Virus record (IMG/VR): IMGVR_UViG_3300013306_000006 | Coordinates: 1 to 45,748 of that record | Strand: one strand, 5' to 3' | Source: a virus | Length of the DNA: 45,748 bases | Part shown: positions 30,654 to 44,501 of the stretch, piece after piece | Position numbering within the stretch: position 1 is the first letter of the stretch | Layout: each line of letters begins with the position of its first letter | Program-made: the position numbers and the translations under genes | The notes under the pieces: generated by a model | Database searches by the model: none | What the model saw: the letters and a program-made list of their open reading frames with translations, nothing else | Told to the model about the DNA's origin: nothing

Positions 30654-30683
30654 TTGACCGTGAAAATACCATTACGGTAGTAT
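30654..30683 (+). promoter_or_regulatory. Early promoter with operator (30666-30680)
   Basis: TTGACC, an 18-nt spacer and TAGTAT. The spacer end holds ATACC-ATTAC-GGTAG. AAAAA lies 4 nt before the -35. It lies in the gap between the late minus operon and the plus accessory genes, so it could govern both directions. Confidence 0.8.
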
Positions 30684-30715
30684 TCGCAGACACTAACGCA
30701 CGGCAGGGGCAAGAA

Positions 30716-30880
30716 ATGAAACGGTTTTACGTATTCCGCGAGTCGGACGGGTGCTTGATCGACGTTGTTACGGCCTTTACGGACGCGTTTGCGTGCCTCG
30801 TGGCCTCGCGAAAGGAAAATTGCGACTGGCTGACCCTTCGCGCTTCCACGAACGCAACAGCGCAGTTCCGGTGCTACTGA
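30716..30880 (+). CDS. Small hypothetical protein
   Basis: A 54-residue protein from ATG 30716 with GGGG 6-9 nt upstream and an operator-promoter at 30654. Sequence: MKRFYVFRESDGCLIDVVTA start and three Cys residues in all. It is the first plus-strand gene after the late region. No family recognised. Confidence 0.65.
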   Translation: MKRFYVFRESDGCLIDVVTAFTDAFACLVASRKENCDWLTLRASTNATAQFRCY

Positions 30881-30881
30881 T

Positions 30882-31169
30882 ATGCCCTACGCATGTCCCA
30901 TACGGCAACGCGAGGCACACAACGCGGCAGTAAAGCGCTGGCGCGAGAAATCAGCCAAGCGCTACAACGCACAGCAGGCGGTTAAAGCGGCCCTGGCGAG
31001 CGGGAAACTGGAAAAGTGGCCTGTATGCGCCGCGTATCCCTGCAAACGCAAGCGCGGGCTCGAAGCACATCATTTCGACTACGACCAACCGTTGCAAGTG
31101 ACGTGGCTTTGCATGAAGTGCCACAAGGCCGCGCACGCGATAGTCGGGTTTCGCAACACAGAACACTGA
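30882..31169 (+). CDS. HNH-type endonuclease
   Basis: A 95-residue protein with CAAYPC near residues 47-52, LEAHHFDYDQPLQVTWLC near residues 60-77 and KCHKAAHAI after it. This Cys4/His2 with HHFDY is the standard small phage HNH. HNH nucleases beside terminase genes help cos cleavage in some phages. This one is divergent from the terminase, so packaging help is possible but unproven. Confidence 0.8.
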   Translation: MPYACPIRQREAHNAAVKRWREKSAKRYNAQQAVKAALASGKLEKWPVCAAYPCKRKRGLEAHHFDYDQPLQVTWLCMKCHKAAHAIVGFRNTEH

Positions 31170-31177
31170 AATAACCA

Positions 31178-31207
31178 TTGACGCCAATACTACCCGTACG
31201 GTAGTGT
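31178..31207 (+). promoter_or_regulatory. Early promoter with operator (31190-31204)
   Basis: AAATA, 4 nt, TTGACG, an 18-nt spacer and TAGTGT. The perfect palindrome CTACC-CGTAC-GGTAG overlaps the spacer end and -10. It drives the DUF6874-like gene cluster from 31233. Confidence 0.82.
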
Positions 31208-31232
31208 TGGCGTAATCACAACAGGAGTTCAA

Positions 31233-31523
31233 ATGTCAGTCTCGTTCGCAGCAACCAAGGAAGAATCAATTCTCATCGGCGCTATCGTTCGGCGTTACGT
31301 CGCCATCGCCAAGGAACAGGGGCAGAAGTTGCCCGACGCTGTTTCGCTCGCGATGGACATCACAGCGTGTCACGCGAACGGTTGCCCGCTCGAATTGGAA
31401 ACGCTGTACAAGTTCGATGATTTCAATTTCGTGCACGACGTGAGCGGAATCCGCAACACGCTCAATCGTTCGAACGGCGAACTGACCAACAATTTCTTGC
31501 CACGTTGCGCGGTGCCGTTATGA
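31233..31523 (+). CDS. DUF6874-like protein
   Basis: A 96-residue protein resembling DUF6874 proteins of Burkholderia-type phages: EESILIGAIVRRYVAIAKEQ at the start, SLAMDITACHANGCPLELETL in the middle, DFNFVHDVSGIRNTLNRSNG near the end. No biochemical role is known. CAGGAG precedes ATG 31233. It is the first gene of an operon of four overlapping genes to 33025. Confidence 0.75.
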   Translation: MSVSFAATKEESILIGAIVRRYVAIAKEQGQKLPDAVSLAMDITACHANGCPLELETLYKFDDFNFVHDVSGIRNTLNRSNGELTNNFLPRCAVPL

Positions 31524-32005
31524 GCGCGATCTATCAGGCCCGAGGGCGCGGCGATAAATCATGGCTCGATTGCAGCGAGGAAGCGTTCGAGCACATGAGC
31601 AACAATCCGTTGCTTTTCGAGACTCGTATCGTCGCCATCCTGCAAGCCGCCACTCGCGAGGCGTCAAGTGCTGATGTCGGCCATGCGTGTGCAACCAAGA
31701 TGCGCGCGACGATGGTACGCCTTGGTGCGTTTCCGGGCGAAGGGTTGGAATGGTTTCAGGCCAACATCGAAGACAACATTTATCTCATGTGCAGAGAAGT
31801 GAACAAACTGCTAGACGATATTACTGTCAGCGCGCCAAGTGCTGATGCGGTAGATGCGCTGAAGCAGATTAAAGCACTGGTGTGCGGCGACCGCTCGCCC
31901 CGCTGGAATAACGACCATCAAGTATCAATTTCGCGCTCGATGATCGCGGACATTGTCGACAACGCTATCGCTGCCAGCGCGCCGAAGGAAGATGGAAATG
32001 ACTGA
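31520..32005 (+). CDS. Hypothetical protein
   Basis: A 161-residue protein starting in an ATGA overlap with the DUF6874-like gene. It is helical, with NIEDNIYLMCREVNKLLDDI in the middle and an acidic end. It is probably made together with the genes on each side. No motif or family recognised. Confidence 0.6.
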   Translation: MSAIYQARGRGDKSWLDCSEEAFEHMSNNPLLFETRIVAILQAATREASSADVGHACATKMRATMVRLGAFPGEGLEWFQANIEDNIYLMCREVNKLLDDITVSAPSADAVDALKQIKALVCGDRSPRWNNDHQVSISRSMIADIVDNAIAASAPKEDGND

Positions 32006-32639
32006 ACGATACGACGGCGATGATCGCGAATCGCGCACTGCTTTTCGCGCATACGACAGCGTGAGCGAGCCTGTATCCAGTCGTACACCGTGGCAAATCT
32101 GGCGCGATGCATGCGCTTGGCAAGCCGCACGCGCCACGCCAGCGGACCAAGAGCCGTTTGCATGGGCGTACAAGTGCGGCGACCAAGTGCATTTGCACAC
32201 GAAAAAATTGGATCACTATTACAGCATGGATTTCGGCGAAACATACGTTAAAGGGATTCCGCTTTATGCCGCACCCCAACCCCCGCAAAACGCTGCCGAC
32301 CATATTGTTGATGCCAACAAAAAGGTTGAGGCGCAGAGCGTGCGGGATGCGGTGATCGGGTCAACTTGGGTAGCCGAAGTTTGCCAAGACGCAGATGGCT
32401 TTAAGCACATTGAGGCGGTCGTTGAGGACTTAGACGATTTCGCTGCGGGAACTCGGCTCTATGCAGGCGGTTTTATTGATGAAGATCGCATTGCTAAGTT
32501 GGCCCACGAAGTCTCGACTGAGTGCCTATCTGTGCCCGGCGTCAACTTCTACATGGCTGCTGAGATGGCTATTGAGCTAACGCTTGAAATGCTCGGGCTG
32601 AAGTCAGCACCGCCCCAGAAACCAGAGGTCATAAAATGA
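31998..32639 (+). CDS. Hypothetical protein
   Basis: A 213-residue protein from ATG 31998, with AAGGAAG 7 nt upstream; ATG 31992 in frame is the alternative. Its parts look unrelated to one another: an N-terminal helical segment rich in Arg/Trp/Ala, a middle with EPFAWAYKCGDQVHLHTKK and GIPLYAAPQPPQ, and a helical end (MAAEMAIELTLEMLGL). The middle pattern (AWxY... IPLYAAPQPP) is common in proteobacterial phage accessory proteins of unknown role. Overlaps both neighbours. Confidence 0.65.
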   Translation: MTERYDGDDRESRTAFRAYDSVSEPVSSRTPWQIWRDACAWQAARATPADQEPFAWAYKCGDQVHLHTKKLDHYYSMDFGETYVKGIPLYAAPQPPQNAADHIVDANKKVEAQSVRDAVIGSTWVAEVCQDADGFKHIEAVVEDLDDFAAGTRLYAGGFIDEDRIAKLAHEVSTECLSVPGVNFYMAAEMAIELTLEMLGLKSAPPQKPEVIK

Positions 32640-33025
32640 CCCTCAATCGGTACTGTGTGCGCCTGCCAATATCCATCGCGCATGTGTTTGCCCTTGACCT
32701 CGTAGAAGCCCGCACGATGGCGACACAGCGCTACGGCGGCTTTTCCGATATTTGGCTAGACGAAGAGCACGCGCAGGAGGCCAACGAGGACGCAGAGCGC
32801 CAGGAGTTCGATGCGTGGCGGGAAACCGTTCCGGACTTCAAGCGCGCGTCGGCCAAGGCCATCAATCTAGCGTGGCAGGCATGGAGGGAACGAGCCATGC
32901 GCGCAACGTGGCTTAGCACGCCTCGCGTCGATTTCGAGGCGCTTGGTATCTCGCTGATGACCAAGGCGCAACGAGCGCTCAGCTACGATCGCTGGCGAAA
33001 ATGGACTGGCGGCAACGATTCATGA
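32636..33025 (+). CDS. Hypothetical protein
   Basis: A 129-residue protein in an ATGA overlap with the previous gene. It is rich in Ala, Arg, Trp and Glu. The central acidic segment is EEHAQEANEDAERQEFDAW, and two LAWQAWRERAM-like Trp segments follow. Last gene of the operon from 31233. Function unknown. Confidence 0.6.
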   Translation: MTLNRYCVRLPISIAHVFALDLVEARTMATQRYGGFSDIWLDEEHAQEANEDAERQEFDAWRETVPDFKRASAKAINLAWQAWRERAMRATWLSTPRVDFEALGISLMTKAQRALSYDRWRKWTGGNDS

Positions 33026-33033
33026 AATAAGTG

Positions 33034-33063
33034 TTTGCGCATTTGCTATCGTTTGGGTAGTAT
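33034..33063 (+). promoter_or_regulatory. Promoter with operator (33046-33060)
   Basis: AAATA, 4 nt, TTTGCG, 18-nt spacer, TAGTAT. The spacer carries CTATC-GTTTG-GGTAG. It starts the tiny-gene cluster at 33093. Confidence 0.75.
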
Positions 33064-33072
33064 TCATTCACA

Positions 33073-33087
33073 CTACCAAAACGGGAG
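33073..33087 (+). promoter_or_regulatory. Operator-like half site merged with a ribosome binding site
   Basis: CTACC-AAAAC-GGGAG, 5 nt before ATG 33093. The right arm doubles as GGGAGG ribosome binding site. Confidence 0.5.
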
Positions 33088-33092
33088 GAAAC

Positions 33093-33221
33093 ATGAAAAT
33101 AATATCAGATCGCCCGCTGCAATCAGAGCACGCGGGCATGTTGGAAGCTATCGAGCACGGAACGATTTTCGTGTTTTCGCTCGTCCGTAACCACTACCGT
33201 AACAGGAGTACAAATGCATAA
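33093..33221 (+). CDS. Tiny hypothetical protein
   Basis: A 42-residue peptide behind a strong GGGAGG and the promoter at 33034. Sequence highlights are MKIISDRPLQSEHAGMLEAI and FVFSLVRNHYRNRS. Its 3' end overlaps the next tiny gene, and its codons for HYRNRS read through the second operator-like site. Function unknown. Confidence 0.55.
   Translation: MKIISDRPLQSEHAGMLEAIEHGTIFVFSLVRNHYRNRSTNA
33194..33208 (+). promoter_or_regulatory. Operator-like half site merged with a ribosome binding site
   Basis: CTACC-GTAAC-AGGAG, 5 nt before ATG 33214. The first ten bases match the consensus operator; AGGAG replaces GGTAG and serves as ribosome binding site. Confidence 0.55.
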
Positions 33222-33291
33222 CGCAACTTGGGCGGTCTGGTTCGTCTTCGCCGGGCTCGCATGGTGGATCACACATCGGGGCACGCAATGA
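33214..33291 (+). CDS. 25-residue membrane peptide
   Basis: ATG 33214 has AGGAG at good spacing. The peptide is one membrane segment (ATWAVWFVFAGLAWWITH) with a short basic tail. It overlaps the genes before and after by 8 and 4 nt. Function unknown. Confidence 0.5.
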   Translation: MHNATWAVWFVFAGLAWWITHRGTQ

Positions 33292-33413
33292 GCGCCGCAT
33301 ATCACTCGACGCTGTTCCAGTTCATGTGTCTCGTGTTCATTTTCGTGGCGCCGGTTGTCGCAGCAATGAGCGCACATCGTTGGCCCACGATCCCGCCGAA
33401 GGGTGACGCATGA
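33288..33413 (+). CDS. 41-residue membrane peptide
   Basis: Starts in an ATGA overlap. Residues about 8-27 (LFQFMCLVFIFVAPVVAAM) span a membrane once; the tail is RWPTIPPKGDA. Coupled translation with its neighbours is likely. Function unknown. Confidence 0.5.
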   Translation: MSAAYHSTLFQFMCLVFIFVAPVVAAMSAHRWPTIPPKGDA

Positions 33414-33502
33414 CATCAATCTACTTTCCAGTGCTCACCTGGGCGGCGTTCGCCCTGTTCGTGGCGTGTGTAGCGGTCGCTCAACGCTTCCGGGGGCGAT
33501 AG
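33410..33502 (+). CDS. 30-residue membrane peptide
   Basis: Starts in an ATGA overlap. One membrane segment (FPVLTWAAFALFVACVAVA) and an RFRGR tail. Its TAG stop shares one base with the next GTG start. Function unknown. Confidence 0.5.
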   Translation: MTSIYFPVLTWAAFALFVACVAVAQRFRGR

Positions 33503-33678
33503 TGGCTCGCGCACTAGGTGGAGTCACCGGGAAGCCCGTGTACGAGCGATTCGAGGAGCGCGAGGCCGCTATCAAGGCAGGAGCGCAGGTCATCCCTGAT
33601 TTACCGCGCCCGCCCTGGTACAAGCCGCGCCCGGCGAACGTGCCGACGTTCCAACAGTATTCAATGCTTGAGGATTGA
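33502..33678 (+). CDS. Small soluble hypothetical protein
   Basis: A 58-residue protein from GTG 33502. It is charged and Pro-rich (PDLPRPPWYKPRPANVPTF) with no membrane segment, unlike its neighbours. CGGGGG lies 4-9 nt before the start. Function unknown. Confidence 0.5.
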   Translation: MARALGGVTGKPVYERFEEREAAIKAGAQVIPDLPRPPWYKPRPANVPTFQQYSMLED

Positions 33679-33679
33679 A

Positions 33680-33757
33680 ATGCGAGATTTCTTTCTAGGC
33701 GCCGTGTTGTTCGCAATCGCGTTCGGCCCGGCAATCATCATCCGTCTGTGGCATTAA
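33680..33757 (+). CDS. 25-residue membrane peptide
   Basis: Starts 1 nt after the previous stop, with GAGGA upstream. Nearly the whole peptide is one membrane segment (FFLGAVLFAIAFGPAIIIRL). Function unknown. Confidence 0.5.
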   Translation: MRDFFLGAVLFAIAFGPAIIIRLWH

Positions 33758-33788
33758 ACGACAGTGCACAGACAACAGGGGAACGAAC

Positions 33789-33926
33789 ATGACCAAACGA
33801 ATCAAGGTAGACATCATCGACATGCGGCGTCAGCGCGACGCGTACGGGCTCAAGATTCTAGGCGCCTTCGTGGGCGGCTTCGCGCTGTTCCTGATCGTCG
33901 GCGCGCTGATCTACGGCATCCACTAG
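33789..33926 (+). CDS. 45-residue membrane peptide
   Basis: A basic, amphipathic N-terminus (MTKRIKVDIIDMRRQRDAYG) is followed by one membrane segment (GAFVGGFALFLIVGALIYGI). GGGG lies about 8 nt before ATG 33789. It is the last of the tiny-gene cluster and converges with the minus gene at 33930. Confidence 0.5.
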   Translation: MTKRIKVDIIDMRRQRDAYGLKILGAFVGGFALFLIVGALIYGIH

Positions 33927-33929
33927 GCG

Positions 33930-34265
33930 TTACGTGCGCCAGTGGTAGTCGTATCGCGCATCGAAATCCAAATCCCGATACTTCCGGCCGATTCGTTCAG
34001 CCGCTTTCTTTTGTGCTCGCTCGAATAGCCACAGTTCGTACATGCCGAACGCTAGGCGAGCCATAGACGCCAATCCCGAGCCGACGCGCAACACATCGAT
34101 CGTCTGTAACCAGAAGGCAAGCCACAACAGCCACCATGCGATCGCTGGCACATTCGCAGGCAGCGCCATCAATCCTGCCATGAACAGGAGCACTGGCAGT
34201 ACAGCGATAAGCACGCGGGCAGCGTAGCCGACGATGAACCAAGAATAGCGGGTAAGTTGCGTCAT
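33930..34265 (-). CDS. Membrane protein of unknown function
   Basis: A 111-residue protein from ATG 34265. Three membrane segments lie between residues about 5 and 75 (FIVGYAARVLIAVLPVLLFM, VPAIAWWLLWLAFWLQ, and a weaker third). The tail is charged (AQKKAAERIGRKYRDLDFDARYD). It is divergent from the operator promoter at 34302, and a related CAACAGTT element lies in the shared gap. It could be a superinfection or accessory membrane factor; nothing in the sequence proves it. Confidence 0.6.
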   Translation of the reverse strand: MTQLTRYSWFIVGYAARVLIAVLPVLLFMAGLMALPANVPAIAWWLLWLAFWLQTIDVLRVGSGLASMARLAFGMYELWLFERAQKKAAERIGRKYRDLDFDARYDYHWRT

Positions 34266-34301
34266 AGGGATCACCCTGAGTAACAACAGTTGAAATACTT
34301 G

Positions 34302-34331
34302 TTGACTGTTACGCTACCTAAACGGTAGTAT
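34302..34331 (+). promoter_or_regulatory. Promoter with operator (34314-34328)
   Basis: AAATA, 4 nt, TTGACT, 18-nt spacer, TAGTAT, with the perfect palindrome CTACC-TAAAC-GGTAG. An extra block AACAACAGTT upstream is shared with the promoter at 37972. Confidence 0.85.
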
Positions 34332-34367
34332 TCAATCACTGAAACGAAACGAGCAAGGGGAAACGAA

Positions 34368-34541
34368 ATGCCGAAAGCCATGAAGACATACGAGATCACG
34401 TTCAATTTTGAACATGCTTCAGGGAGTGCAACCGTTCAAGTACGCGGGTTTGATGACGAAAACGCGATTAGTAACGCAATGCAATACGTCAACAAAGATT
34501 TATCCCCGGTTCTATATCACATTCACGATTTGACTCTTTAA
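34368..34541 (+). CDS. Small hypothetical protein
   Basis: A 57-residue protein from ATG 34368 with AGGGG about 10 nt upstream and its own operator promoter. Composition suggests a beta-beta-alpha fold (YEITFNFEHASGSATVQVRG, then an EN-AISNAMQYV helix). A hairpin at 34548 follows. Layout (own promoter, single small gene) repeats at 34929 and 38033. Function unknown. Confidence 0.65.
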   Translation: MPKAMKTYEITFNFEHASGSATVQVRGFDDENAISNAMQYVNKDLSPVLYHIHDLTL

Positions 34542-34547
34542 CCCAAT

Positions 34548-34564
34548 GCCCCGCACGACGGGGC
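34548..34564 (+). terminator. Short hairpin after a small gene
   Basis: GCCCC and GGGGC pair around a 7-nt loop, followed by TTAG. There is no T run, so termination strength is doubtful. Confidence 0.45.
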
Positions 34565-34607
34565 TTAGTCGGTATCATGGTGGAATACGAAAGAGGCAGC
34601 TAACAGA

Positions 34608-34844
34608 ATGTCGAAAAAACAGAAGGAAACCGAGCAGGCAGCAAAAGACGTTCTCGCCGGGCGCCGAACTCTCACAGAAGACGAGATACGCGAGCTAAAG
34701 CGAACCGTCGCCAAGCAACGCGCAAACCGCGCCAAGAAGGCAAAGCAAGCCGCTTCACGCCCGCGAACAACGGATATGCGAGGCGCGCGCACTTCTACCG
34801 TGGCGCCGCGTGTAGTGCCTGGAAGCTTCGAATCTAAGAAGTGA
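34608..34844 (+). CDS. Small basic protein
   Basis: A 78-residue protein very rich in Lys and Arg: DEIRELKRTVAKQRANRAKK and KQAASRPRTTDMRG. It may bind nucleic acid through charge. The ribosome binding site is weak. It sits between two promoter-operator units. No family recognised. Confidence 0.55.
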   Translation: MSKKQKETEQAAKDVLAGRRTLTEDEIRELKRTVAKQRANRAKKAKQAASRPRTTDMRGARTSTVAPRVVPGSFESKK

Positions 34845-34863
34845 TAAAACAGCGAAATAACCG

Positions 34864-34892
34864 TTGACTGTTGCATACCGAATAGGTAGTAT
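34864..34892 (+). promoter_or_regulatory. Promoter with operator (34875-34889)
   Basis: AAATA, 4 nt, TTGACT, 17-nt spacer, TAGTAT, with ATACC-GAATA-GGTAG. It drives the 57-residue gene at 34929. Confidence 0.82.
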
Positions 34893-34928
34893 TCACACAT
34901 CGGCAGCAAACAACCAGGGGAACGCGCG

Positions 34929-35102
34929 ATGAACGAGCAAGCCAAGCAACCGCAAAAGATCACGTTCGCAGCGTTCGACAAGAACAACCGCATGCACATG
35001 TCCGTGACCGTGCTCGATACGCCGAAGCAGATCGCCGATGCGATGCGGTTCTTCGAGAACAACTATCCGGGCGAGCGCGTGTTTCGCAAGATCGCGAGCT
35101 AA
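34929..35102 (+). CDS. Small hypothetical protein
   Basis: A 57-residue protein under its own operator promoter, with GGGG 8 nt before ATG 34929. Sequence features are KITFAAFDKNNRMHMSVTVL and PKQIADAMRFFENN. The predicted pattern (strands then a helix) resembles that of the product of 34368, but identity is low. Function unknown. Confidence 0.62.
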   Translation: MNEQAKQPQKITFAAFDKNNRMHMSVTVLDTPKQIADAMRFFENNYPGERVFRKIAS

Positions 35103-35497
35103 CGCCCAACCTTGCGCGGGTCGCAACACGTGGCCCGACCGTTCAGCAGATGCGAGCACCACCAGCAACGCGGGCCGCTCGAAGTTTGGTGTAATATCTC
35201 GGATAAATGGATTGCGACTACGCGGTCGGCGTCGCGGGGATCGGAACTACGGTCCCCCTTCGCTTCTCTTTTCGATCCCGGCGCAATGTCCGCCAAATCT
35301 ACGCTCACAAGCCCCAACCTTCGCCAACAGCGGAAATGTGCATGACTGTTCCTCGCGCGCACATGCGCATCATGGGGTTTGTTTCTGGAATAGGGAGCGG
35401 GAAAACTGAACGCGGGCGCACATATTTTTCACTGGTCTCTAAACGCTCAAGGCTCCGACTCGCCGCATGTGTGCGAACGTCATCCTTGTATTTGCGT

Positions 35498-35570
35498 GGC
35501 GCTCACCCAACGCGAAGGGTGTGGTGGTCTATTGCGCCAGTCCAGCGGAACGCTTCGACACACGGGCGCC
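35498..35570 (+). other. tRNA-like cloverleaf candidate
   Basis: A 73-nt stretch closed by a 7-bp stem (GGCGCTC with GGGCGCC, one G-T pair). Inside are stems at D-arm place (ACCC/GGGT, 8-nt loop), anticodon place (TGGT/GCCA with a 7-nt loop CTATTGC) and a short AGCG/CGCT hairpin in place of the T arm. No canonical TTCGA T loop in the right position. It could be chance or a tRNA-like RNA. Confidence 0.3.
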
Positions 35571-35820
35571 GTAATCCTCCCCTATGTGCGCCTAGCTTCT
35601 CTAGTGTCATCCTCACCGCTTGGTGTTCAGTCTTCCCGCGTGATCGTTGAGGGTAGCAACCCTTTCAGGTCGCCGTCGTGCCGTTTCCCACCTGTCCGCA
35701 CGCTGACAGTCTGCGTCTCCTGGGGCGCAGGAACAACCTTGACGCAACGTTTCTTACCCTCATGAATGACGACTGCTCAGGGCAGATATGTCCCGGCCAC
35801 GAGTCCAAGCCCCCAGGGCA

Positions 35821-35894
35821 AGTAAGCATCCGAGTCGAACGGTCCAATCGTCATTCGTGAAAGCAGGGCGCTCCGGTCTCTATCCCGGCTTATC
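35821..35894 (-). other. Degenerate tRNA-Glu-like sequence
   Basis: On the minus strand 74 nt run from GATAAGC to GCTTACT (five clean pairs, one G-T, one mismatch). At positions 32-38 is CTTTCAC, the anticodon loop of tRNA-Glu(TTC), and a T loop TTCGACT lies near the expected place. The anticodon stem has only two of five pairs, and the D stem is poor. If it derives from a tRNA it is decayed. Confidence 0.3.
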
Positions 35895-35914
35895 TCTGTG
35901 CGCCCTGTAAATCG

Positions 35915-36163
35915 TTACTCTTTCCTCTCACGCTCGCGTCGTGCCCTACGATGCGCAAAGCCATCCATCGCCATCCGATATGCATAAGCGGCCGTCACGA
36001 TTGGGCCGCCCTTGAATTCATGGCGAAGATCGCGCAGGCCGCTGATGACTGAGTCTTTAATCCCTACCAGCAGATACCAGAGGAACACGAGAGGGATAAA
36101 GACAAATCCGATGACGACGAGCAACGCGGCTAGATACCGATCCTTTGGCTTGTTGTATTCCAT
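35915..36163 (-). CDS. Small membrane protein
   Basis: An 82-residue protein from ATG 36163 (GTG 36166 possible), overlapping the previous stop. Residues about 10-33 form a membrane segment (YLAALLVVIGFVFIPLVFLWY). A basic cytoplasmic tail ends in RRARRERERKE. Last gene of a five-gene minus operon. Function unknown. Confidence 0.6.
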   Translation of the reverse strand: MEYNKPKDRYLAALLVVIGFVFIPLVFLWYLLVGIKDSVISGLRDLRHEFKGGPIVTAAYAYRMAMDGFAHRRARRERERKE

Positions 36164-36663
36164 CACGTACCACCCGGAACGGTCAGCAGGGCGCTTTCCA
36201 GTGATCCATAAGCCGTGAGCGTCAGGAAGTCATGCAGAGAGCGCAGCGGGCCGGTTTCGTCACTGCTTGCCATCAGGATCACGGCCGCTTCCAGTCGGAT
36301 AAGCCTTTCGGATAGCGTGACGCTTCGTCCTGGCTTGAGCGCTGTGTGATCCCACGGACCGCCGTTGTTACCGACCTTCGCAGAGTATGCCCGGCGCTTT
36401 TCGCGTTTCCGCTTGGCCTTATCCCGATCGGGGCTCGACGGTTCCGCGCGAACAGTTGAATTACTTTTGGCTGTTCGGTGCGAAATCGCTTCAAGTCGAT
36501 CGGCATTTCCCGGCTGAACGATGCTAATCGGGACGGGCGACAGACTGATTGTTAGATGGTCGCGCCCGCTCCCCACATAGCCATCGATCTTGTAGCCAAC
36601 AGCCCCAACCAAGAACGCCTCGAACTCGTTACGCGTCGGCGCATGTCTGATCGCGTACTGCAT
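36163..36663 (-). CDS. Hypothetical protein
   Basis: A 166-residue protein following the HD hydrolase in an overlap. The first third is beta-like (YKIDGYVGSGRDHLTISLSP), then a basic linker (DKAKRKREKRRAYSAK), then a helical end (SERLIRLEAAVILMASSDE). No family recognised. Co-transcribed with the HD gene, so it may act with it. Confidence 0.6.
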   Translation of the reverse strand: MQYAIRHAPTRNEFEAFLVGAVGYKIDGYVGSGRDHLTISLSPVPISIVQPGNADRLEAISHRTAKSNSTVRAEPSSPDRDKAKRKREKRRAYSAKVGNNGGPWDHTALKPGRSVTLSERLIRLEAAVILMASSDETGPLRSLHDFLTLTAYGSLESALLTVPGGT

Positions 36664-37913: not shown

Positions 37914-37971
37914 TCCCGAACCCTCGCTTTCATGGCGCGTTGCCTCATTCGAAACAACAGTTAAATAACGT

Positions 37972-38000
37972 TTGACTGTTCACTATCGTAACGGTAGTAT
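37972..38000 (+). promoter_or_regulatory. Promoter with operator (37983-37997)
   Basis: AAATA, 4 nt, TTGACT, 17-nt spacer, TAGTAT, with CTATC-GTAAC-GGTAG. The upstream AACAACAGTT block matches the one at 34281. Minus-operon transcription diverges from the same gap. Confidence 0.85.
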
Positions 38001-38024: not shown

Positions 38025-38032
38025 CGAAAATC

Positions 38033-38191
38033 ATGTGGCAACTAAGCGTCAAATTCACCTGGGGCCAACCGTTCGCAGTGAACGGCAGCTATCAGACCGA
38101 GAACGAAGCCGACGAAGCAGGCGATGCGCTTGTGGGCGACGGCTCGATAGTCGATTACAAGATCGAAAACATGAGTCAGGCATACGCATGA
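38033..38191 (+). CDS. Small hypothetical protein
   Basis: A 52-residue acidic protein from ATG 38033 with AGGAG upstream and its own operator promoter. Features: WQLSVKFTWGQPFAVNGSYQ then an acidic helix (ENEADEAGDALVGDG). Ends in ATGA overlap with the next gene. Function unknown. Confidence 0.62.
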   Translation: MWQLSVKFTWGQPFAVNGSYQTENEADEAGDALVGDGSIVDYKIENMSQAYA

Positions 38192-38544
38192 ACCGGCCAA
38201 ACCTCACCACGCTCACAAAGGATCAACTCGTGGCGCTCTACAAAGCGCTCCACTTACCGGGCGTCGATCCGGCTAGGCACGCGCGCGAATACTACCGTAA
38301 CGCGCTTGAATCAAGAGGCAGCGAAGAGCTAGCCGCTGCGCTCGAAGCATTGCCGCCCAAAGCGGCGCGCAAACTGTCGGCAGCAAAGGAGCAACAGAAA
38401 AAAGCGCTAGCGAATGCGAAAGAGTTTCACGCAATCGTTAGGGCTTTCAGATCGTGGGGGCCTGACTTGCTAGGCAATCCCGACGCACACGCAACGTTAC
38501 TCGCACGCGCTGATAAGGCGCTTGGAGCCGGTCAAAATGTATGA
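38188..38544 (+). CDS. Hypothetical helical protein
   Basis: A 118-residue protein coupled by ATGA to the gene before. Start TTLTKDQLVALYKALHLPGV, then a Lys/Ala-rich helix (LPPKAARKLSAAKEQQKKAL). Possibly DNA-binding by charge; no family recognised. Overlaps a 33-residue ORF at its end. Confidence 0.6.
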   Translation: MNRPNLTTLTKDQLVALYKALHLPGVDPARHAREYYRNALESRGSEELAAALEALPPKAARKLSAAKEQQKKALANAKEFHAIVRAFRSWGPDLLGNPDAHATLLARADKALGAGQNV

Positions 38545-38638: not shown

Positions 38639-38740
38639 GAGACTTGCCCGCGCTACGTTGCCCGCGTCAATGACCGGGCATCGGGTAGCGGGGCTATCTC
38701 GCTTCTCTTGGTGATACAAGACTCATCCGACACGCTAGTA

Positions 38741-38771
38741 CGCCCACGGCATGCATGCGGCGGGCATTTTT
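38741..38771 (+). terminator. Probable terminator of the accessory operon
   Basis: GCCC...GGGC enclosing a GCATGCATGC palindrome is followed by ATTTTTCT. It lies 100 nt after the last accessory plus-strand gene. Confidence 0.5.
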
Positions 38772-38839
38772 CTCGACGGTCTATTGTCCAATCATCCACG
38801 CACCACACAGGCGCGTCGGTCCGATTTAACGGATTCGGT

Positions 38840-38886
38840 TTGATTTCAAATCAATGCGCGTTCGCGCTTTTGAGTTCTTAAAGAAC
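38840..38886. promoter_or_regulatory. Two perfect palindromes close together
   Basis: TTGATTT-C-AAATCAA (38840-38854) and GTTCTT-A-AAGAAC (38874-38886), with a GCGCG-TT-CGCGC hairpin between them. Both are unlike the CTACC operator and may bind a different regulator or initiator. Confidence 0.4.
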
Positions 38887-38974
38887 GTTACCGTTCAGCG
38901 ATCAACTTTTCATAAACGATCCCCGCACGATATTGGTTAGACGCCCTGTATGGGGTGCGCCAATTCTATTTCCC

Positions 38975-39066
38975 TCGGGAAGTCTGCCGCGCACCTGTTG
39001 GACCGCACGGAGGGTAGCAACGATAGCGCGACTAGGGCATTGCGCCCCGACCGGCAGACTTCCCGA
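38975..39066. repeat. 15-bp inverted repeat enclosing 62 nt
   Basis: TCGGGAAGTCTGCCG (38975-38989) and its exact complement (39052-39066) flank 62 nt that can form smaller hairpins (GGGC-attgc-GCCC near the right arm). A transcript would form a long stem with an internal multi-branch loop. No gene overlaps. Confidence 0.7.
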
Positions 39067-39192
39067 AGGGGCCGAGTGTAGGTTCGGCCAGGTCCGCCAG
39101 TTGTTCGCTGGACTTTTTGCGGCTGGTGCGACGGGCGTTCAATCCCGCGTCGTCTGAATTCAGGGCTCTGACTAAGCTACGCACCAAATGAA

Positions 39193-39221
39193 AAGGGCGG
39201 CTACCTTGCGGCGCCGCCCTT
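39193..39221 (-). terminator. Terminator of the minus-strand switch genes
   Basis: AAGGGCGG pairs with CCGCCCTT around a 13-nt loop. On the minus strand TTTCATTT follows, so it would end transcription of the gene at 39289 (and possibly the repressor). Confidence 0.65.
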
Positions 39222-39288
39222 CGAATATCGTTTTGCTCGTACTAATTCACAGCATAGAAAGAATTGTACAGATCGTCTTTGGCCTCGT

Positions 39289-39489
39289 CTAGCTCTTTTT
39301 GGTAGTTTGTTCGACTACCTTATCATTGATGCTTTTTAGCAACAGTTTCTGCTCTTCGGGAGAAAACATTGAAAGCGCCTGTACGAATTCGCTCTCGCTC
39401 AATGTTTTCCCATCTTTCGAGCAGGCCGCGCATATGGTCAGTATGCTGCTTTTTTCCGCTCTTCTTATCTCGGCAACGCCACAGTCCAT
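39289..39489 (-). CDS. Small hypothetical protein next to the repressor
   Basis: A 66-residue protein from ATG 39489, with GGAGCGGG 4-11 nt upstream; ATG 39531 in frame overlaps the promoter and is rejected. Features: AEIRRAEKSSILTICAACSK and SPEEQKLLLKSINDKVVEQT. Two Cys residues form CAAC. It is governed by an operator at 39537. It could be a repressor-linked accessory; function unknown. Confidence 0.6.
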   Translation of the reverse strand: MDCGVAEIRRAEKSSILTICAACSKDGKTLSESEFVQALSMFSPEEQKLLLKSINDKVVEQTTKKS

Positions 39490-39533
39490 CTTTCCCGCTC
39501 CGGTAATTATCACGCCCTCGTGAACGTGCATGA

Positions 39534-39551
39534 ATTATACCGCTTTGGTAG
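39534..39551 (-). promoter_or_regulatory. Promoter/operator for the minus gene at 39489
   Basis: On the minus strand CTACC-AAAGC-GGTAT merges with TATAAT (39539-39534). A TTGATA lies 20 nt upstream of the -10, a little far. The operator (39537-39551) would block this promoter. Confidence 0.55.
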
Positions 39552-39623
39552 TAGAACAGTATCAAGTTGTAACGGCAAAACATGCCTATATTTGCGCTAT
39601 CGTTCCCGGTAAATATGTGCTAC

Positions 39624-39998
39624 CTAACCAGACAGCTTTTTCGTAAGTGCCTGAATCAATGCGGCTTGTGCGTCGTTCGGGCTTTGTCGGTAAAGCTCTA
39701 CAGCCGCTTTCACAAACTCTGCCTCGTCGGGCGTGCGCGGCGCGCCGTTCTCGTGATCCTGATCCATCCAGCCAGGAGGTAGCTTTAACGCCGCCTCGAT
39801 TTTCTTACCCATTCGAGCGCCGATCGGCTTATACCCGGTGTTCAGATGCGACATATACGCTTCGCTGATGCCAAGTCGCTCGCCAAAACGCCGCAACATA
39901 CCTCGGTCGGGCTCGCCGGGCCATTCTCGCCAAACGGATTCCTTGAATCGCTCGAAGAGAAATTGGTAGTTCTTGAAGCGAATTTGATAAACGTCCAT
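39624..39998 (-). CDS. Repressor-like HTH protein
   Basis: A 124-residue protein. After a 30-residue basic/aromatic start it has a Cro/C1-type helix-turn-helix: MLRRFGERLGISEAYMSHLN then GYKPIGARMGKKIEAALKLP (residues about 34-73). The end is helical and lacks a peptidase domain, so it is not self-cleaving. Place, opposite to a Cro-like gene with operators between, makes it the candidate lysogeny repressor and the best candidate reader of the CTACC operators. GAAGG lies 7-11 nt before the start. Confidence 0.72.
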   Translation of the reverse strand: MDVYQIRFKNYQFLFERFKESVWREWPGEPDRGMLRRFGERLGISEAYMSHLNTGYKPIGARMGKKIEAALKLPPGWMDQDHENGAPRTPDEAEFVKAAVELYRQSPNDAQAALIQALTKKLSG

Positions 39999-40155
39999 GA
40001 TGCGCCTTCGTTGGTAGTTATTCGATAATTAGAACCATACCATAAAGATACGAATAAACTACACGAAAACCCTGCACGGCCGCATATAGCTTGCGTTTGT
40101 CCGACCACATAGACTACCATAACGGTTGTATTTCTACGATCAACCAAGGAGTTTT
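39999..40155. promoter_or_regulatory. Divergent switch region
   Basis: The gap between repressor and Cro-like gene. A half operator GGTAG (40013-40017) lies in the repressor leader; a near-complete operator CTACC-ATAAC-GGTTG (40114-40128) precedes the Cro-like gene with TTGTAT as -10. No good TTGAC is seen for the plus promoter, which suggests a weak or activated promoter. AAGGAG is the ribosome binding site at 40156. Confidence 0.65.
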
Positions 40156-40401
40156 ATGGCTACCAAGCAAAAAATGCCGATGAACGCAATGGAGTTCTGG
40201 CAAGCGGTCGGGACACCGATAGTAAAAAAGGTGTGCGACAAAGCCGGGACAAAGTTCAGCTACTTCGAGCACATCAAGCACGGACGCAAGCGACCAGGCT
40301 ATGACCTTGCAAAAAGTCTCTCTGTCGCCGCCTTTGAAGTCACTGGACATAACCTTGGCGTAACGCAACTGATGGAAGCCAAGGAGGGGAAAGCTGAATG
40401 A
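40156..40401 (+). CDS. Cro-like HTH protein
   Basis: An 81-residue protein: MNAMEFWQAVGTPIVKKVCD near the start, then FSYFEHIKHGRKRPGYDLAK and a helical end. It resembles small YdaS/Cro-type regulators that open the lytic operon. AAGGAG precedes ATG 40156 well. Its end overlaps the replication gene. DNA target likely the operators in the gap before it. Confidence 0.68.
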   Translation: MATKQKMPMNAMEFWQAVGTPIVKKVCDKAGTKFSYFEHIKHGRKRPGYDLAKSLSVAAFEVTGHNLGVTQLMEAKEGKAE

Positions 40402-41165
40402 TAGTTCGCTCGAAGCAGAAATCACGCGGGTTCTACATGCTGGAAAACTCGCTCGCCAACGATCCCGGCATATCGTGGGCGGCGAAAGGCATGTTGGTTT
40501 TCTTGCTCGCCAAGCCGGATGAATGGCGCGTCTGTGTTGAGGCACTTGTAAATTTCACCCTCCCGGCCACCCCCAAGAACGTCGGCAAGGATGGCGTCTA
40601 CTCGATCATCAAAGAATTGGTCGCAGCAGGGTACATGACCAAGCACAAGCACCGCGACGGAACGCTTGATTACATGGTCTACGACGAGCGTCAGATCGAA
40701 GAATCAGCAGATCGGGAAAATCCCGATTTGCTAAATAATCAGCAAAACGGGAATTTCCCAAACAGGGAAAACCCAGATCGGGAAATTCCGCCACTAGTAA
40801 AGACTGACTTAGAAACTAAGACTGTAAAAGCTTTAAAGAAAACTAAGCGATCGCCCCGCATGACCGAAGTACTGGCGATTCTTCCTGAATGGCTCGCCGT
40901 TGAAGATTGGGAAAAATGGGTGACGCATCGCAAGCAGCTTGGCAAACCGATGACGCCTCTTGCTGCTGAACAATGCCTTTCAAAGCTCGTTGCGTTCCGG
41001 AACGAGGGTTACGACCCGAAGGCAATTATTGAGAACTGTGTGGCCCTTGGATACCGCGGATTGTTCGTGTCTCCGAATACTACCAAAACGGTTGGACAAC
41101 CAAGCCGCTTTAACCTAAAATCAATGGACTACGGGAAAGACCTCGACAGCGACATACCTTTTTAA
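40398..41165 (+). CDS. Replication initiation-like protein
   Basis: A 255-residue protein. Residues 1-95 form a winged-helix domain (FYMLENSLANDPGISWAAKG, VYSIIKELVAAGYM) like phage O/DnaD-type initiators. A Asn/Arg-rich linker with repeated REN/DREIP follows (about 105-130), then a helical DnaD-like domain. The last residues are DSDIPF, an SSB-type tip. It is followed by a DnaC-like loader, as in O-P pairs. A copy of the operator core lies within its coding frame at 41080. Confidence 0.75.
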   Translation: MIVRSKQKSRGFYMLENSLANDPGISWAAKGMLVFLLAKPDEWRVCVEALVNFTLPATPKNVGKDGVYSIIKELVAAGYMTKHKHRDGTLDYMVYDERQIEESADRENPDLLNNQQNGNFPNRENPDREIPPLVKTDLETKTVKALKKTKRSPRMTEVLAILPEWLAVEDWEKWVTHRKQLGKPMTPLAAEQCLSKLVAFRNEGYDPKAIIENCVALGYRGLFVSPNTTKTVGQPSRFNLKSMDYGKDLDSDIPF

Positions 41166-41177
41166 GCACTGCGAAAA

Positions 41178-41948
41178 ATGACCGATACCAAAATCCTTCA
41201 CTGTCCGACGCATGGCGACTACGCGGCTCAACCGATCATGTTTCGCGGCGCAGTCATCACAAAGGGTGAGCACTGCCTACTGTGCACCCGCGCTGAAGCC
41301 GACGCATTGGAAGCGACGAACAAGGCAAAGGAGGCGGTCGAGCGGCAAGAGCGCATCGAGAAGCGGTTTGCACAGTCAGGCATCCCGCGCGGATTCGCTA
41401 ACCGGACGTTCGAAAGCTACAGGGCCGACACGCCAGCCATGCAAACGGCCATTGCGAAGGCTCAGCGGTTCGCAGACGGGTTCCGGTCGCATCTTAAGGT
41501 CGGAACGTCTCTGATGTTCATCGGAGGCATTGGAACGGGCAAGACGCACCTTGCCGTTGCAATTGCTCACCGGGTTATGTCGTTCGGCCATAGCGTCATG
41601 TACGAAACGGCTTTCGACCTCGTAACACGGATGCGTGATTGCATGCGTCGTGACGCCGAAACCAGCACTACAGCAATGATGGACGCATACGGCGCCATCG
41701 ACCTTTTGGTACTTGACGAAATTGGCATCCAGGGCGCGACGGACGATGTTCGCGCTCACCTGACAAACGTCATCGACCGGCGTTATCGGAACGCCCGCCC
41801 GACGATCATTATTTCAAACCTCGATAGGGAGTCTCTAGCCCAATACCTGGGCGACCGTATTGCCGACCGCCTGCGCGAGCGCGCATCAGTGGTGATCTTT
41901 GATTGGGAATCACAGCGCATAAAAGCGCGCAGCGTAGGGGAGTTCTGA
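41178..41948 (+). CDS. DnaC-like helicase loader ATPase
   Basis: A 256-residue AAA+ protein. An N-terminal zinc-like set (HCPTHG, HCLLC, residues 8-36) precedes Walker A GGIGTGKT (116-123) and Walker B LLVLDEIG (about 177-184). A sensor-like IIISNLDRESL and the arginine-rich ADRLRER follow. It would load host DnaB at the phage origin with the upstream initiator. Overlaps next gene by TGATG. Confidence 0.87.
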   Translation: MTDTKILHCPTHGDYAAQPIMFRGAVITKGEHCLLCTRAEADALEATNKAKEAVERQERIEKRFAQSGIPRGFANRTFESYRADTPAMQTAIAKAQRFADGFRSHLKVGTSLMFIGGIGTGKTHLAVAIAHRVMSFGHSVMYETAFDLVTRMRDCMRRDAETSTTAMMDAYGAIDLLVLDEIGIQGATDDVRAHLTNVIDRRYRNARPTIIISNLDRESLAQYLGDRIADRLRERASVVIFDWESQRIKARSVGEF

Positions 41949-42229
41949 TGTTATCGACCAAAGCCGAGTCCTTGATAGAAACGCGAGCCAGTGGCGTGAA
42001 GCAACGCCAGCAAGTCGCGATACTCAATTTTCTGAGGGATATGAACCATTCATCATTCAGTAGGAACCAGCTATCGCGGAACATGGGAATGTTGGTTGGC
42101 TCTGTGTGCGCTCGAATCGATGAGTTGCTAGCCGATGGCCTGATCGCTCGTGGCGACCCGATCAAGGACTCAATCACCGGCCGCACGGTGCAAACCGTTC
42201 GCGCCGCACCTGACCTTTTCTTGCAATGA
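41948..42229 (+). CDS. HTH/winged-helix small protein
   Basis: A 93-residue protein from ATG 41948. Residues about 20-75 look like a winged helix: QQVAILNFLRDMNHSSFSRN, then NMGMLVGSVCARIDELLADG LIARGD. GGGGAG lies 4-9 nt upstream. May regulate replication or late genes. ATGA overlap at its end. Confidence 0.65.
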   Translation: MLSTKAESLIETRASGVKQRQQVAILNFLRDMNHSSFSRNQLSRNMGMLVGSVCARIDELLADGLIARGDPIKDSITGRTVQTVRAAPDLFLQ

Positions 42230-42450
42230 GCGATCTTCAACGCGGTGACTACAACCGCGACCCCCTGATTATCTTAATTGAACGCGAATCCCGGTCATGC
42301 GCTGCTTGCGTGTGGTCGATCGGAAAATACAACTTTTTAGGCGATCCCGTATGCGCGCAGAACCGGCTAATGAAAAAGCAGTGCGAAAAGTTTGCCTCTT
42401 TGGATCAGTACACAACGGCTTGCAATTTGCGTTCGAATCGCTCGCAGTAG
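42226..42450 (+). CDS. Small Cys-rich protein
   Basis: A 74-residue protein with Cys at CAAC (residues about 25-28), C in GDPVCAQN, KQC and TAC, a possible zinc site. It starts in an ATGA overlap and its end is overlapped by the next gene for 100 nt. Proteins of this type (ESRSCAACVWS, MKKQCEKF) are common in phage replication operons. Function unknown. Confidence 0.6.
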   Translation: MSDLQRGDYNRDPLIILIERESRSCAACVWSIGKYNFLGDPVCAQNRLMKKQCEKFASLDQYTTACNLRSNRSQ

Positions 42451-42899
42451 CGGAATCGATCAAAACGCCGGGGTACGACGAGCCAACCGCAAACGCGACC
42501 GAGAAAAAGAGCAAGCTTTCACGGCTAGATTCAGTGACGCAAGCCGTTTGGGTTATGAAATCAACGAAAGAGTCTCTGACGGCCTCGGAAATGGCTTGGG
42601 CTACTGCCACATACGATGGGGCGGGCGAAGCCAAGCGGCAAGCGATCGATGCCCTTGCCGACGAATACTCAACGCTTAGCAAAAGCCGCGAATTGCTCAT
42701 TGCGGTCTTGGATCGAGAATTCATCATCGGCGAAACATATTGTCCGAGCTTCGCGACGGTTGCGAAGGATCACGGCGTGTCGAAATCCTACGCGGGCGCG
42801 GTCGGCTTGCGAATACAGCGGGCGATGCGGAGCCTGGGGAATGTAGCCGTCACAAAGCTGCACGAGGCGTACAAGAATCAAGGATGGTTGCCGCACTAA
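42351..42899 (+). CDS. HTH protein, candidate late regulator
   Basis: A 182-residue protein from ATG 42351, which overlaps the previous gene by 100 nt; GTG 42381 and later starts are possible. The first 60 residues are poorly defined. Residues about 95-165 are helical with a HTH (SFATVAKDHGVSKSYAGAVG then LRIQRAMRSLG), like sigma region 4 or antiterminator-type proteins. Last gene of the replication operon, the usual place of a late regulator. The role is inference. Confidence 0.6.
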   Translation: MRAEPANEKAVRKVCLFGSVHNGLQFAFESLAVAESIKTPGYDEPTANATEKKSKLSRLDSVTQAVWVMKSTKESLTASEMAWATATYDGAGEAKRQAIDALADEYSTLSKSRELLIAVLDREFIIGETYCPSFATVAKDHGVSKSYAGAVGLRIQRAMRSLGNVAVTKLHEAYKNQGWLPH

Positions 42900-42902
42900 A
42901 AA

Positions 42903-42956
42903 ATATCTAAATGGTAGTAAATAGCGCTTGACGCGATTACTACCATAACGATATGC
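42903..42956 (+). promoter_or_regulatory. Promoter with tandem operators
   Basis: Upstream operator ATATC-TAAAT-GGTAG (42903-42917), AAATA, 4 nt, TTGACG, then core operator CTACC-ATAAC-GATAT (42940-42954) with ATATGC as -10. Centres are 37 bp apart, exactly as at 44447/44484. It serves the Sak4-like and SSB-like genes. Confidence 0.8.
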
Positions 42957-42988
42957 TTCGTTCACGTTATCGGAAACAGGCGGGCCAG

Positions 42989-43174
42989 ATGGAAGACGAC
43001 GACGCAGGGCAGCAGCAATTCGAGCAAGACGAACAGCGCGAACAGACCGAAACAGAAACCGAAAAGGGAAATCATGGCAACCGTAACTTTTATCCTTGGC
43101 GCGTCCGGGACCGGAAAGTCCACCGCTATGCGCAATCTTGCGCCAGCGGAGACGCTTTTGATTCAGGCGCTTAG
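42989..43174 (+). CDS. Doubtful acidic leader ORF
   Basis: A 61-residue frame from ATG 42989 (GGCGGG upstream) with an acidic repeat-like stretch (MEDDDAGQQQFEQDEQREQT). It overlaps the Sak4-like gene by 100 nt in another frame. The acidic part lies before the overlap. It may be a leader peptide or no gene. Confidence 0.3.
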   Translation: MEDDDAGQQQFEQDEQREQTETETEKGNHGNRNFYPWRVRDRKVHRYAQSCASGDAFDSGA

Positions 43175-43730
43175 GAAGTCGCTCCCGTTCAAGGGCAAGT
43201 CGGCAGGATGGGATTACCTGTCCGCTGAGAACAAGCAGGGCAACATCATCGCGTCGGATAAATCCGAATACATAATAAACGCGATGCAGCGCACGCGGCG
43301 CAAGATCATTGTCATTGACGATTTCCAATACGTCATGGGCAATGAATTCATGCGGCGCAATGACGAGAAAGGCTACGACAAGTTTAACGACATTGGCCGT
43401 CACGCCTGGGACATTCTCAACGCTGCAACCGAACTGCCCGCCGATGTGCGTGTGTACATCATGTCGCACACCGAAGAAACGGACACGGGCAAGTCCAAGA
43501 TGAAGACGATCGGAAAGATGCTTGACGACAAAATTTGTCTCGAAGGCATGGTCACAATCGTTTTGCAAACCGAAGTCATCGACCGCGAACACCTGTTCGT
43601 GACACAGAACAACGGACGCACGACAGTGAAGAGCCCTATTGGTCTGTTTTCCGATGACATGATCCCGAATGATCTTGCGGCCGTTGATGCAGCTATCACC
43701 GACTATTACGACCTCACCACCCCGGCCTAA
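43074..43730 (+). CDS. Sak4-like RecA-type ATPase
   Basis: A 218-residue protein with Walker A GASGTGKS (residues 9-16), Walker B IIVIDDFQYV (about 77-86) and a glutamine/threonine region like RecA-core ATPases (YIMSHTEETD). It matches the AAA_24/Sak4 group of phage recombinases that work with an SSB partner. The next gene provides an SSB-like protein, which supports this. Ribosome binding site AAGGGAA 5 nt before ATG 43074. Confidence 0.82.
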   Translation: MATVTFILGASGTGKSTAMRNLAPAETLLIQALRKSLPFKGKSAGWDYLSAENKQGNIIASDKSEYIINAMQRTRRKIIVIDDFQYVMGNEFMRRNDEKGYDKFNDIGRHAWDILNAATELPADVRVYIMSHTEETDTGKSKMKTIGKMLDDKICLEGMVTIVLQTEVIDREHLFVTQNNGRTTVKSPIGLFSDDMIPNDLAAVDAAITDYYDLTTPA

Positions 43731-43759
43731 ATCGCCTAAACCGATCGAGAAGGAAAAAC

Positions 43760-44443
43760 ATGTACGCAATCACTAAAGAATCTGTCGATGCAGCACGCAA
43801 AGCAGAAAACCGCACGCACTTCATCGACGCGAAGGGCGCTTTCCTGGGCGAATTCACCAAGGCCGAAAAAGTTCTTGCCGCCACGGGCACGCACGGCGTT
43901 TCGTTCTCGTTCAAGGGCAACGACGGCGACCTAGCCAACTTCAGCATCTACACGATCAAAAAGGATGGCACGAAGCTTGGCGACTATGGGTTGCTCATTG
44001 CGATCATGGCATGTATGGGCGTTCGTGACTTGACGGAAGCAAAAGTAAAGTCGCCAGTCTGGAACGCGGAAACTCGCCAAAACGAAGAACAGGTGCTCAC
44101 GCAGTTTCCCGAGCTTTTGGGAAAGCAAATCGGGCTCATGTTCATCATGGAAGAGTACGAGAAAAAGGACAACACGGGCGCCGGTACGGGCGAGTATGGC
44201 TGGTCTGCTCGACTCAACGCGGCTTTCCGTGCCGCCGACAATCTCTTTGCGTCTGAAATCATGGATCGCAAAACCCAGGCGCTGAAATATCCGCTGATCC
44301 TCGATGCGTTGCGGGATCGGCCGATAAAGAACAAGGCGGGCGGCGGGGCTTCCCTTGGATCGCGCAGGCTTGGAAACAGCGGGCATCCGAATGCGCCGGG
44401 GGCGGGCGGGTTTGATCAGATGGATGACGACATTCCTTTCTGA
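43760..44443 (+). CDS. SSB-like DNA-binding protein
   Basis: A 227-residue protein. Residues about 30-110 look like an OB-type domain (FSFKGNDGDLANFSIYTIKK, YGLLIAIMACMGVRDL). The C-terminus is a Gly-rich linker and the acidic tip FDQMDDDIPF, the hallmark of bacterial SSB tails that recruit host repair proteins. Together with the Sak4-like gene it makes a recombination pair. AGAAGG precedes ATG 43760. Confidence 0.8.
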   Translation: MYAITKESVDAARKAENRTHFIDAKGAFLGEFTKAEKVLAATGTHGVSFSFKGNDGDLANFSIYTIKKDGTKLGDYGLLIAIMACMGVRDLTEAKVKSPVWNAETRQNEEQVLTQFPELLGKQIGLMFIMEEYEKKDNTGAGTGEYGWSARLNAAFRAADNLFASEIMDRKTQALKYPLILDALRDRPIKNKAGGGASLGSRRLGNSGHPNAPGAGGFDQMDDDIPF

Positions 44444-44446
44444 GTC

Positions 44447-44501
44447 CGACCAAAACGGTAGTAAATAATCCTTGACGCGAATACTACCATGCCGATAGTA
44501 T
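44447..44501 (+). promoter_or_regulatory. Promoter with tandem operators
   Basis: Upstream operator CGACC-AAAAC-GGTAG (44447-44461), AAATA, 4 nt, TTGACG, then core operator CTACC-ATGCC-GATAG (44484-44498) and TAGTAT -10 with an 18-nt spacer. Centres 37 bp apart. It starts the operon 44531 to 1973. Confidence 0.84.

Follow-up and report, generated by a model that had tools for sequence, protein, structure and literature searches.

What controls the set of similarly built promoters that is scattered over the viral contig IMGVR_UViG_3300013306_000006? The window analysed here is this whole contig of 45,748 bp. It has a 123-bp direct repeat at its ends (1-123 and 45626-45748) and is therefore probably complete, being either circular or circularly closed, and since it encodes an integrase and a protein of the PrtN/excisionase family (Pfam and PHROG profile matches), the phage is a temperate one. 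Eight sites between 30654 and 44501, and two outside this span, share the palindrome CTACC-N5-GGTAG or a close variant; from their sequence we read them as early promoters. We propose with considerable confidence that the palindrome is the operator of the phage's own lysogeny repressor, encoded at 39624-39998 on the minus strand, which would silence the lytic early promoters in the prophage. Three of the promoters are called slot promoters here, after the exchange of small genes behind them that is described below. The ten promoters are as follows, G001 being a related viral contig:

30654..30683, plus strand: promoter with operator ATACCATTACGGTAG (30666-30680), spacer 18, -10 TAGTAT; counterpart in G001
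31178..31207, plus strand: promoter with operator CTACCCGTACGGTAG (31190-31204), spacer 18, -10 TAGTGT; counterpart in G001
33035..33063, plus strand: promoter with operator CTATCGTTTGGGTAG (33046-33060), spacer 17, -10 TAGTAT; counterpart in G001
34286..34331, plus strand: slot promoter with ACAG..CTGT around the -35 and operator CTACCTAAACGGTAG (34314-34328); gene 34368-34541, 57 aa
34849..34892, plus strand: slot promoter with operator ATACCGAATAGGTAG (34875-34889); gene 34929-35102, 57 aa
37957..38000, plus strand: slot promoter with operator CTATCGTAACGGTAG (37983-37997); gene 38033-38191, 52 aa, whose G001 orthologue is 90% identical
42903..42957, plus strand: promoter between operators 37 bp apart (42903-42917, 42940-42954), preceding an AAA_24 ATPase gene (43074)
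44447..44501, plus strand: promoter between operators 37 bp apart (44447-44461, 44484-44498); pair kept in G001
9732..9761, plus strand: promoter whose operator CTACCGTAAAGGTAG (9740-9754) lies 3 bp closer to the -35; followed by gene 9791-10591; kept in G001 at 7582(-)
3912..3942, plus strand: promoter with operator CTACCTAAATAGGAG (3922-3936); helix-turn-helix (HTH) gene 3974-4336

Promoter and operator architecture

An earlier, sequence-only reading of this DNA had described all eight promoters of the span, and the two at 9732 and 3914, and each of them is present as described. The excess of the motif over shuffled sequence bears this out. With up to two mismatches, CTACC-N5-GGTAG was found at 29 sites, against 7.7 ± 2.6 in dinucleotide shuffles (none of 100 shuffles as high), and with up to one mismatch at 15 sites, against 0.4 expected. 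A single motif is thus above chance in many promoters scattered over the genome, which is one mark of a dispersed-operator immunity regulon. The composite TTG-N8/9-[AC]TA[CT]C-N5-G[GA]TA[GT] occurs eight times on the plus strand and never on the minus strand (shuffle mean 0.013), a surprise somewhat overstated, since the sites were already known when the pattern was composed, which makes it as much a description as a test. AAATA-N4-TTG[AC] likewise occurs seven times on the plus strand and not on the minus strand; shuffles gave a mean of 0.69 and a maximum of 4. The motif had been said to be absent from the structural operon; this holds apart from one site with one mismatch at 23000, which is about the chance level.

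The eight promoters of the span have a -35 of TTGACN in seven cases and TTGCGC in the eighth, a hexamer spacer of 17 or 18, and a right half-site that merges into the -10 (GG running into TAGTAT). Since the right half-site supplies the first bases of the -10 while the spacer varies, the operator is locked to the -10 and not to the -35. In seven cases an AAATA tract ends precisely 4 bases above the -35, and this tract seems to resemble the proximal UP element of sigma-70 promoters. The shared order of AAATA, TTGAC and palindrome is as proposed earlier, with the correction that the interval of 11-12 nt before the palindrome is counted from the first T of TTG. The two outlying copies do lie nearer the -35, as had been noted: at 9732 (TTGAAC-N17-TATTGT) and 3914 (TTGATA-N17-TATATT), read from the sequence, the operator is displaced by 3 bp and a separate -10 follows it.

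Half-sites vary to CTATC, ATACC, GATAG and GATAT around a preferred centre RTAAC. Their centres are 10 bp, or one helical turn, apart, as would be expected of the dimer of a lambda-type HTH protein. At the promoters at 42928 and 44472 a second operator is found exactly 37 bp upstream, and both pairs are kept in G001. ACAG and CTGT around the -35 (at 34286-34311, 34849-34873 and 37957-37981) are either both there or both absent at promoters of this contig; they were considered as a dyad for a second dimer, with a spacing that varies from 13 to 14.

Association of the operator with a repressor family

Two divergent genes with an operator between them form the candidate regulatory region:

39624..39998, minus strand: putative lysogeny repressor of 124 aa with an XRE/lambda-type HTH, the proposed operator-binding protein
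40156..40401, plus strand: Cro-like small protein, 81 aa, divergent, predicted to be an all-helical HTH protein from its relatives, model and fold matches
40114..40128, plus strand: operator CTACCATAACGGTTG in the repressor/Cro-like intergenic region; kept in G001

The candidate repressor matches the PHROG 5736 transcriptional regulators (2e-8) and the profile of Rep of phage SPC32H (5d50; 5e-5, only residues 37-94 of the profile being matched), and its AlphaFold model has six helices and a predicted local distance difference test score (pLDDT) of 82. The Cro-like protein was modelled with a pLDDT of 78 and has weak XRE-fold matches. NCBIfam has no family for either protein. Neither a near-identity search with the contig nor a search with the repressor gave a match among 50,697 phage records; plasmids gave a single match to the repressor, of 36%, and its closest bacterial homologues are from Burkholderiales.

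Relatives were gathered by protein similarity alone, and the family-level counts given here rest on these related contigs. Repressor relatives were found in 18 viral contigs, at 88% identity in G001 and 50-56% (about 52%) in the other 17. G001 has the same operators at the corresponding promoters. The relatives of about 52% retain ACAGYGAAAATA-N4-TTGACTGT as upstream module, and also the 5-N5-5 layout, but their half-site has drifted to [AC]T[AC][CT]C (right halves: GGTAT, GGTAG, GATAT or GAGAG), so that these operators fail the exact CTACC-N5-GGTAG pattern. The recognition helix EAYMSH is conserved among the phages, and the repressor types are too few for assigning half-site contacts.

The bacterial genome scan gave 14 loci of Oxalobacteraceae type (Noviherbaspirillum, Herbaspirillum, Herminiimonas, Paucimonas and metagenome-assembled genomes) with a repressor homologue 38-44% identical, picked by this homology and without reference to the motif. 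The palindrome was near the homologue in 13 of the 14. Allowing one mismatch, there were 19 sites in the interval from 1.1 kb upstream to 0.9 kb downstream of the homologue and 2 in the 229 kb that remain. When the five half-site letters were permuted, the 19 alternative orders gave 0-2 sites nearby. In the three Oxalobacteraceae-type genomes searched for a Cro-like relative none was found, and the palindrome persists there. It is therefore the repressor that is the common factor, and of the two proteins put forward earlier as regulators, 39624-39998 is favoured over 40156-40401 by this comparative evidence. The same operator can be followed as the repressor diverges from 88% to about 40% identity.

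The bacterial loci L243 to L256 (around 10001 in most) carry the repressor homologue and an AAA-type ATPase beside ordinary metabolic genes. They resemble either prophage remnants that have been conserved or early regions that were domesticated, with the operators retained. In L248, where a Gp157-like gene was also seen, one palindrome lies just upstream of the ATPase gene, like the pair at 42903 and 42940 here. L131, which had several hits in the pattern scan of viral sequences, was set aside, as its sites have no promoter context and are embedded in unrelated sequence.

Proposed regulation and alternative explanations

From the computed sites, promoter geometry, conservation and association of repressor family and operator we infer how binding, repression and timing would proceed. 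In the prophage a repressor dimer, with one HTH on each CTACC half, would sit between the -35 and the -10 and exclude RNA polymerase. One protein would in this way silence about ten scattered transcription units, those of the left arm and of the replication/recombination arm, the accessory genes, and the gene at 9791 for the lipoprotein, and upon infection or induction all of them would open together. At two promoters there is an extra operator 37 bp upstream; the promoterless one-sided sites, which point with transcription, may act as additional roadblocks, and some promoters would serve as slots for small-gene exchange. The divergently encoded Cro-like protein is likely to share these operator sites or to modulate them. 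The phage-wide regulon suggested by the sequence-only reading, with an operator positioned to block RNA polymerase, is the best reading.

Several observations weigh against the repressor as the reader of these sites. For the candidate itself, Pfam HTH_3 is below cut-off and the Foldseek matches of the model are weak (best E 1.7e-3). The contig L022 has the exact CTACC-N5-GGTAG with a different centre, and stops short of the repressor region. A Caballeronia arvi repressor homologue (L242:1867-2136), with 84% DNA identity over 240 bp to that of contig G035, has a different context, and no operator was found on its 4.8-kb contig. In the 14 bacterial loci the nominal p of 5e-17 should not be taken as a real probability, since the loci share ancestry and their sites are partly orthologous; the interval around the repressor gene was set after the sites had been seen, although the contrast with the permuted half-sites stands. 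An undetectably divergent Cro-like protein could also be present in these loci. Cro-like relatives adjoin the repressor in all 18 viral contigs searched (22-32% identity in 17, 78% in G001), so that among the phages the two proteins are not separable.

This last point, together with the divergent CI/Cro layout and the predicted HTH-like fold, is what would favour the sites being read mainly by the Cro-like protein 40156-40401, which would shut down early transcription in lytic growth while the repressor acted only at the switch region. We regard this as unlikely, because the palindrome persists by the repressor homologue in the three Oxalobacteraceae genomes that have no detectable Cro-like relative. 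That the sites bind an activator which switches the promoters on is less probable again. The imperfect -10 (TAGTAT) would suit it, as would the additional site that two promoters have upstream, bordering the -35 region; however, a dimer bound to a palindrome that covers the spacer and the -10 would exclude polymerase, and with a near-consensus -35 (TTGACN) under the AAATA tract the promoters look self-sufficient. Least credible of all, by a little, is recent duplication of one promoter cassette with no common regulator. The longer ACAG..CTGT module is indeed common to the three slot promoters, but the remaining promoters have only the operator and the hexamers in common, the operator is in another register at 9732 and 3914, half-sites are kept while centre and flanks vary, and the same palindrome stands beside homologous bacterial repressors.

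Relation to known systems

The divergent arrangement of a repressor and a small HTH protein, with an operator between them, is that of lambdoid CI/Cro. In lambda the operators are concentrated at OR and OL, whereas those of the present phage are spread over about ten promoters. Pfam, PHROGs and NCBIfam showed no C-terminal S24 peptidase domain in the 124-aa repressor. The dispersal of operators under a single repressor is shared with phage P1, in which 22 dispersed asymmetric C1 operators place many lytic units under one repressor (PMC8546580). The P1 operator is however a 17-bp asymmetric sequence, ATTGCTCTAATAAATTT, and that of the present phage a 15-bp palindrome, and no sequence relation is suggested. 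The Bacillus phage SPbeta likewise has a repeated 15-bp element (SPBRE) in promoter regions, bound by the master repressor MrpR (PMC10516654), but MrpR is tyrosine-recombinase-like and the candidate here is of the XRE/lambda-type HTH. The best profile and fold match of this candidate, the Rep protein of Salmonella phage SPC32H, has 199 aa and binds the antirepressor Ant through a C-terminal tetramerization domain (PMC9986798), whereas the candidate has only 124 aa and no antirepressor was found for it.

Mycobacteriophage L5 and its stoperators had been named as a parallel in the sequence-only reading, and the parallel holds in part. L5-type phages have 20-30 asymmetric sites, many of them promoterless and syn-oriented, which are bound by a monomer, and no Cro analogue (PMC6550527). 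In both L5/Bxb1 and the present phage the sites are dispersed, some in promoters and others promoterless and oriented with transcription, and the site sequence drifts with the repressor. The L5 sites however lack dyad symmetry and there is no Cro, in contrast to the palindromic promoter operators and divergent Cro-like gene found here.

The system is therefore most probably a dispersed immunity regulon that would work like those of P1 C1, L5 and SPbeta and yet is a member of none of them, with a new candidate operator-repressor pair. A soil-phage family without near relatives among the phage records would thereby gain such a pair, which can be traced along with the repressor family into Burkholderiales genomes, and immunity types would become predictable from sequence.

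Slot promoters and small-gene exchange

At the slot promoters 34286, 34849 and 37957, ACAG and CTGT stand on either side of the -35. Slot promoters were also seen in the relatives L263, L266, L276, L290, L292 and L293, and in relatives they precede about 20 unrelated families of small proteins, which are 40-140 aa long and whose leaders measure about 52-70 nt. Proteins related to the product of gene 34929-35102 lie behind slot promoters in L266 and L282. At the same slot, promoter and leader are mostly 92-99% identical within a subgroup and 68-83% between subgroups, and identity over the first 120 nt of the gene is usually 58-70%, where unrelated pieces aligned in the same way gave 0.59 (maximum 0.67). 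A few phage pairs share the gene behind the slot promoter, and in one pair the similarity ends at the start codon and returns about 320 nt later. Since conservation extends to the start codon and the gene behind it is replaced, the start codon is the exchange point.

On balance we favour the view that in this phage family the standard slots for early genes have the operator of the lysogeny repressor built in, with promoter, operator and leader kept and the small gene swapped. Newcomers would then at once be shut off in the prophage and expressed upon infection, as would follow from the operator. As the repressor diverged, the operators of all slots would change together, and new immunity types would arise. 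The slots may be compared with the PeSL cassettes of T4-type phages, in which, according to Arbiol 2010 and Comeau 2014 as cited in PMC4503421, an early promoter motif is repeated and small genes are shuffled. As far as that account goes, a conserved early promoter motif across the genome with exchanged small genes is common to both; the difference is that the PeSL joins promoter and terminator in virulent phages, whereas the promoter here carries the operator of a lysogeny repressor. The slots would be a place to seek fast-evolving small early proteins such as counter-defence genes, any gene directly behind a slot promoter being a candidate. In one relative a dUTPase-like gene lies behind a slot promoter (L259:9208(-)).

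Further operators and one-sided sites

The scan also returned sites that the sequence-only reading had missed, namely the operators at 42903, 44447, 39537, 40114 and 7027 and promoterless one-sided sites at 1982, 2078, 4352, 33072, 33193 and 41079. Those not yet given are:

39537..39551, minus strand: operator that overlaps a TATAAT and precedes the 80-aa gene 39289-39531(-); counterpart in G001
7027..7041, minus strand: operator CTATCGTAACGGTAG just upstream of the integrase gene 5843-6961(-), from the motif scan
1982..1997, plus strand: one-sided promoterless site ACTACCAAAACGG; counterpart at G001 15425
2078..2093, plus strand: one-sided site directly before the start codon of gene 2099-2923; counterpart at G001 14503
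4352..4367, plus strand: one-sided site upstream of the gene at 4371; counterpart at G001 12663
33072..33087, plus strand: site CTACCAAAACGGGAG, right half falling on the ribosome-binding site, from the motif scan
33193..33208, plus strand: site CTACCGTAACAGGAG, right half falling on the ribosome-binding site; counterpart at G001 29800
41079..41094, plus strand: promoterless one-sided site close to the 3' end of gene 40398-41165; counterpart at G001 21904

The one-sided form ACTACCRWAAC occurs seven times on the plus strand and not on the minus strand, with 0.03 expected. Not all of these are promoterless sites: those at 40113 and 42939 fall within listed operators, and that at 38291 is inside a gene. 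The promoterless ones fall in rightward-transcribed regions, the G001 counterparts of 1982, 2078, 4352, 33193 and 41079 are at corresponding places, and some overlap ribosome-binding sites. A fixed ACTACC-N15-ATG spacing at ribosome-binding sites was considered and is not claimed, the enrichment being just modest. The one-sided sites could be stoperator-type roadblocks or worn operators.

The gene 9791-10591, behind the promoter at 9732, is located between lysis and tail genes, and its product is lipoprotein-like (similar to PHROG 8011 and to families of tail-fibre type).

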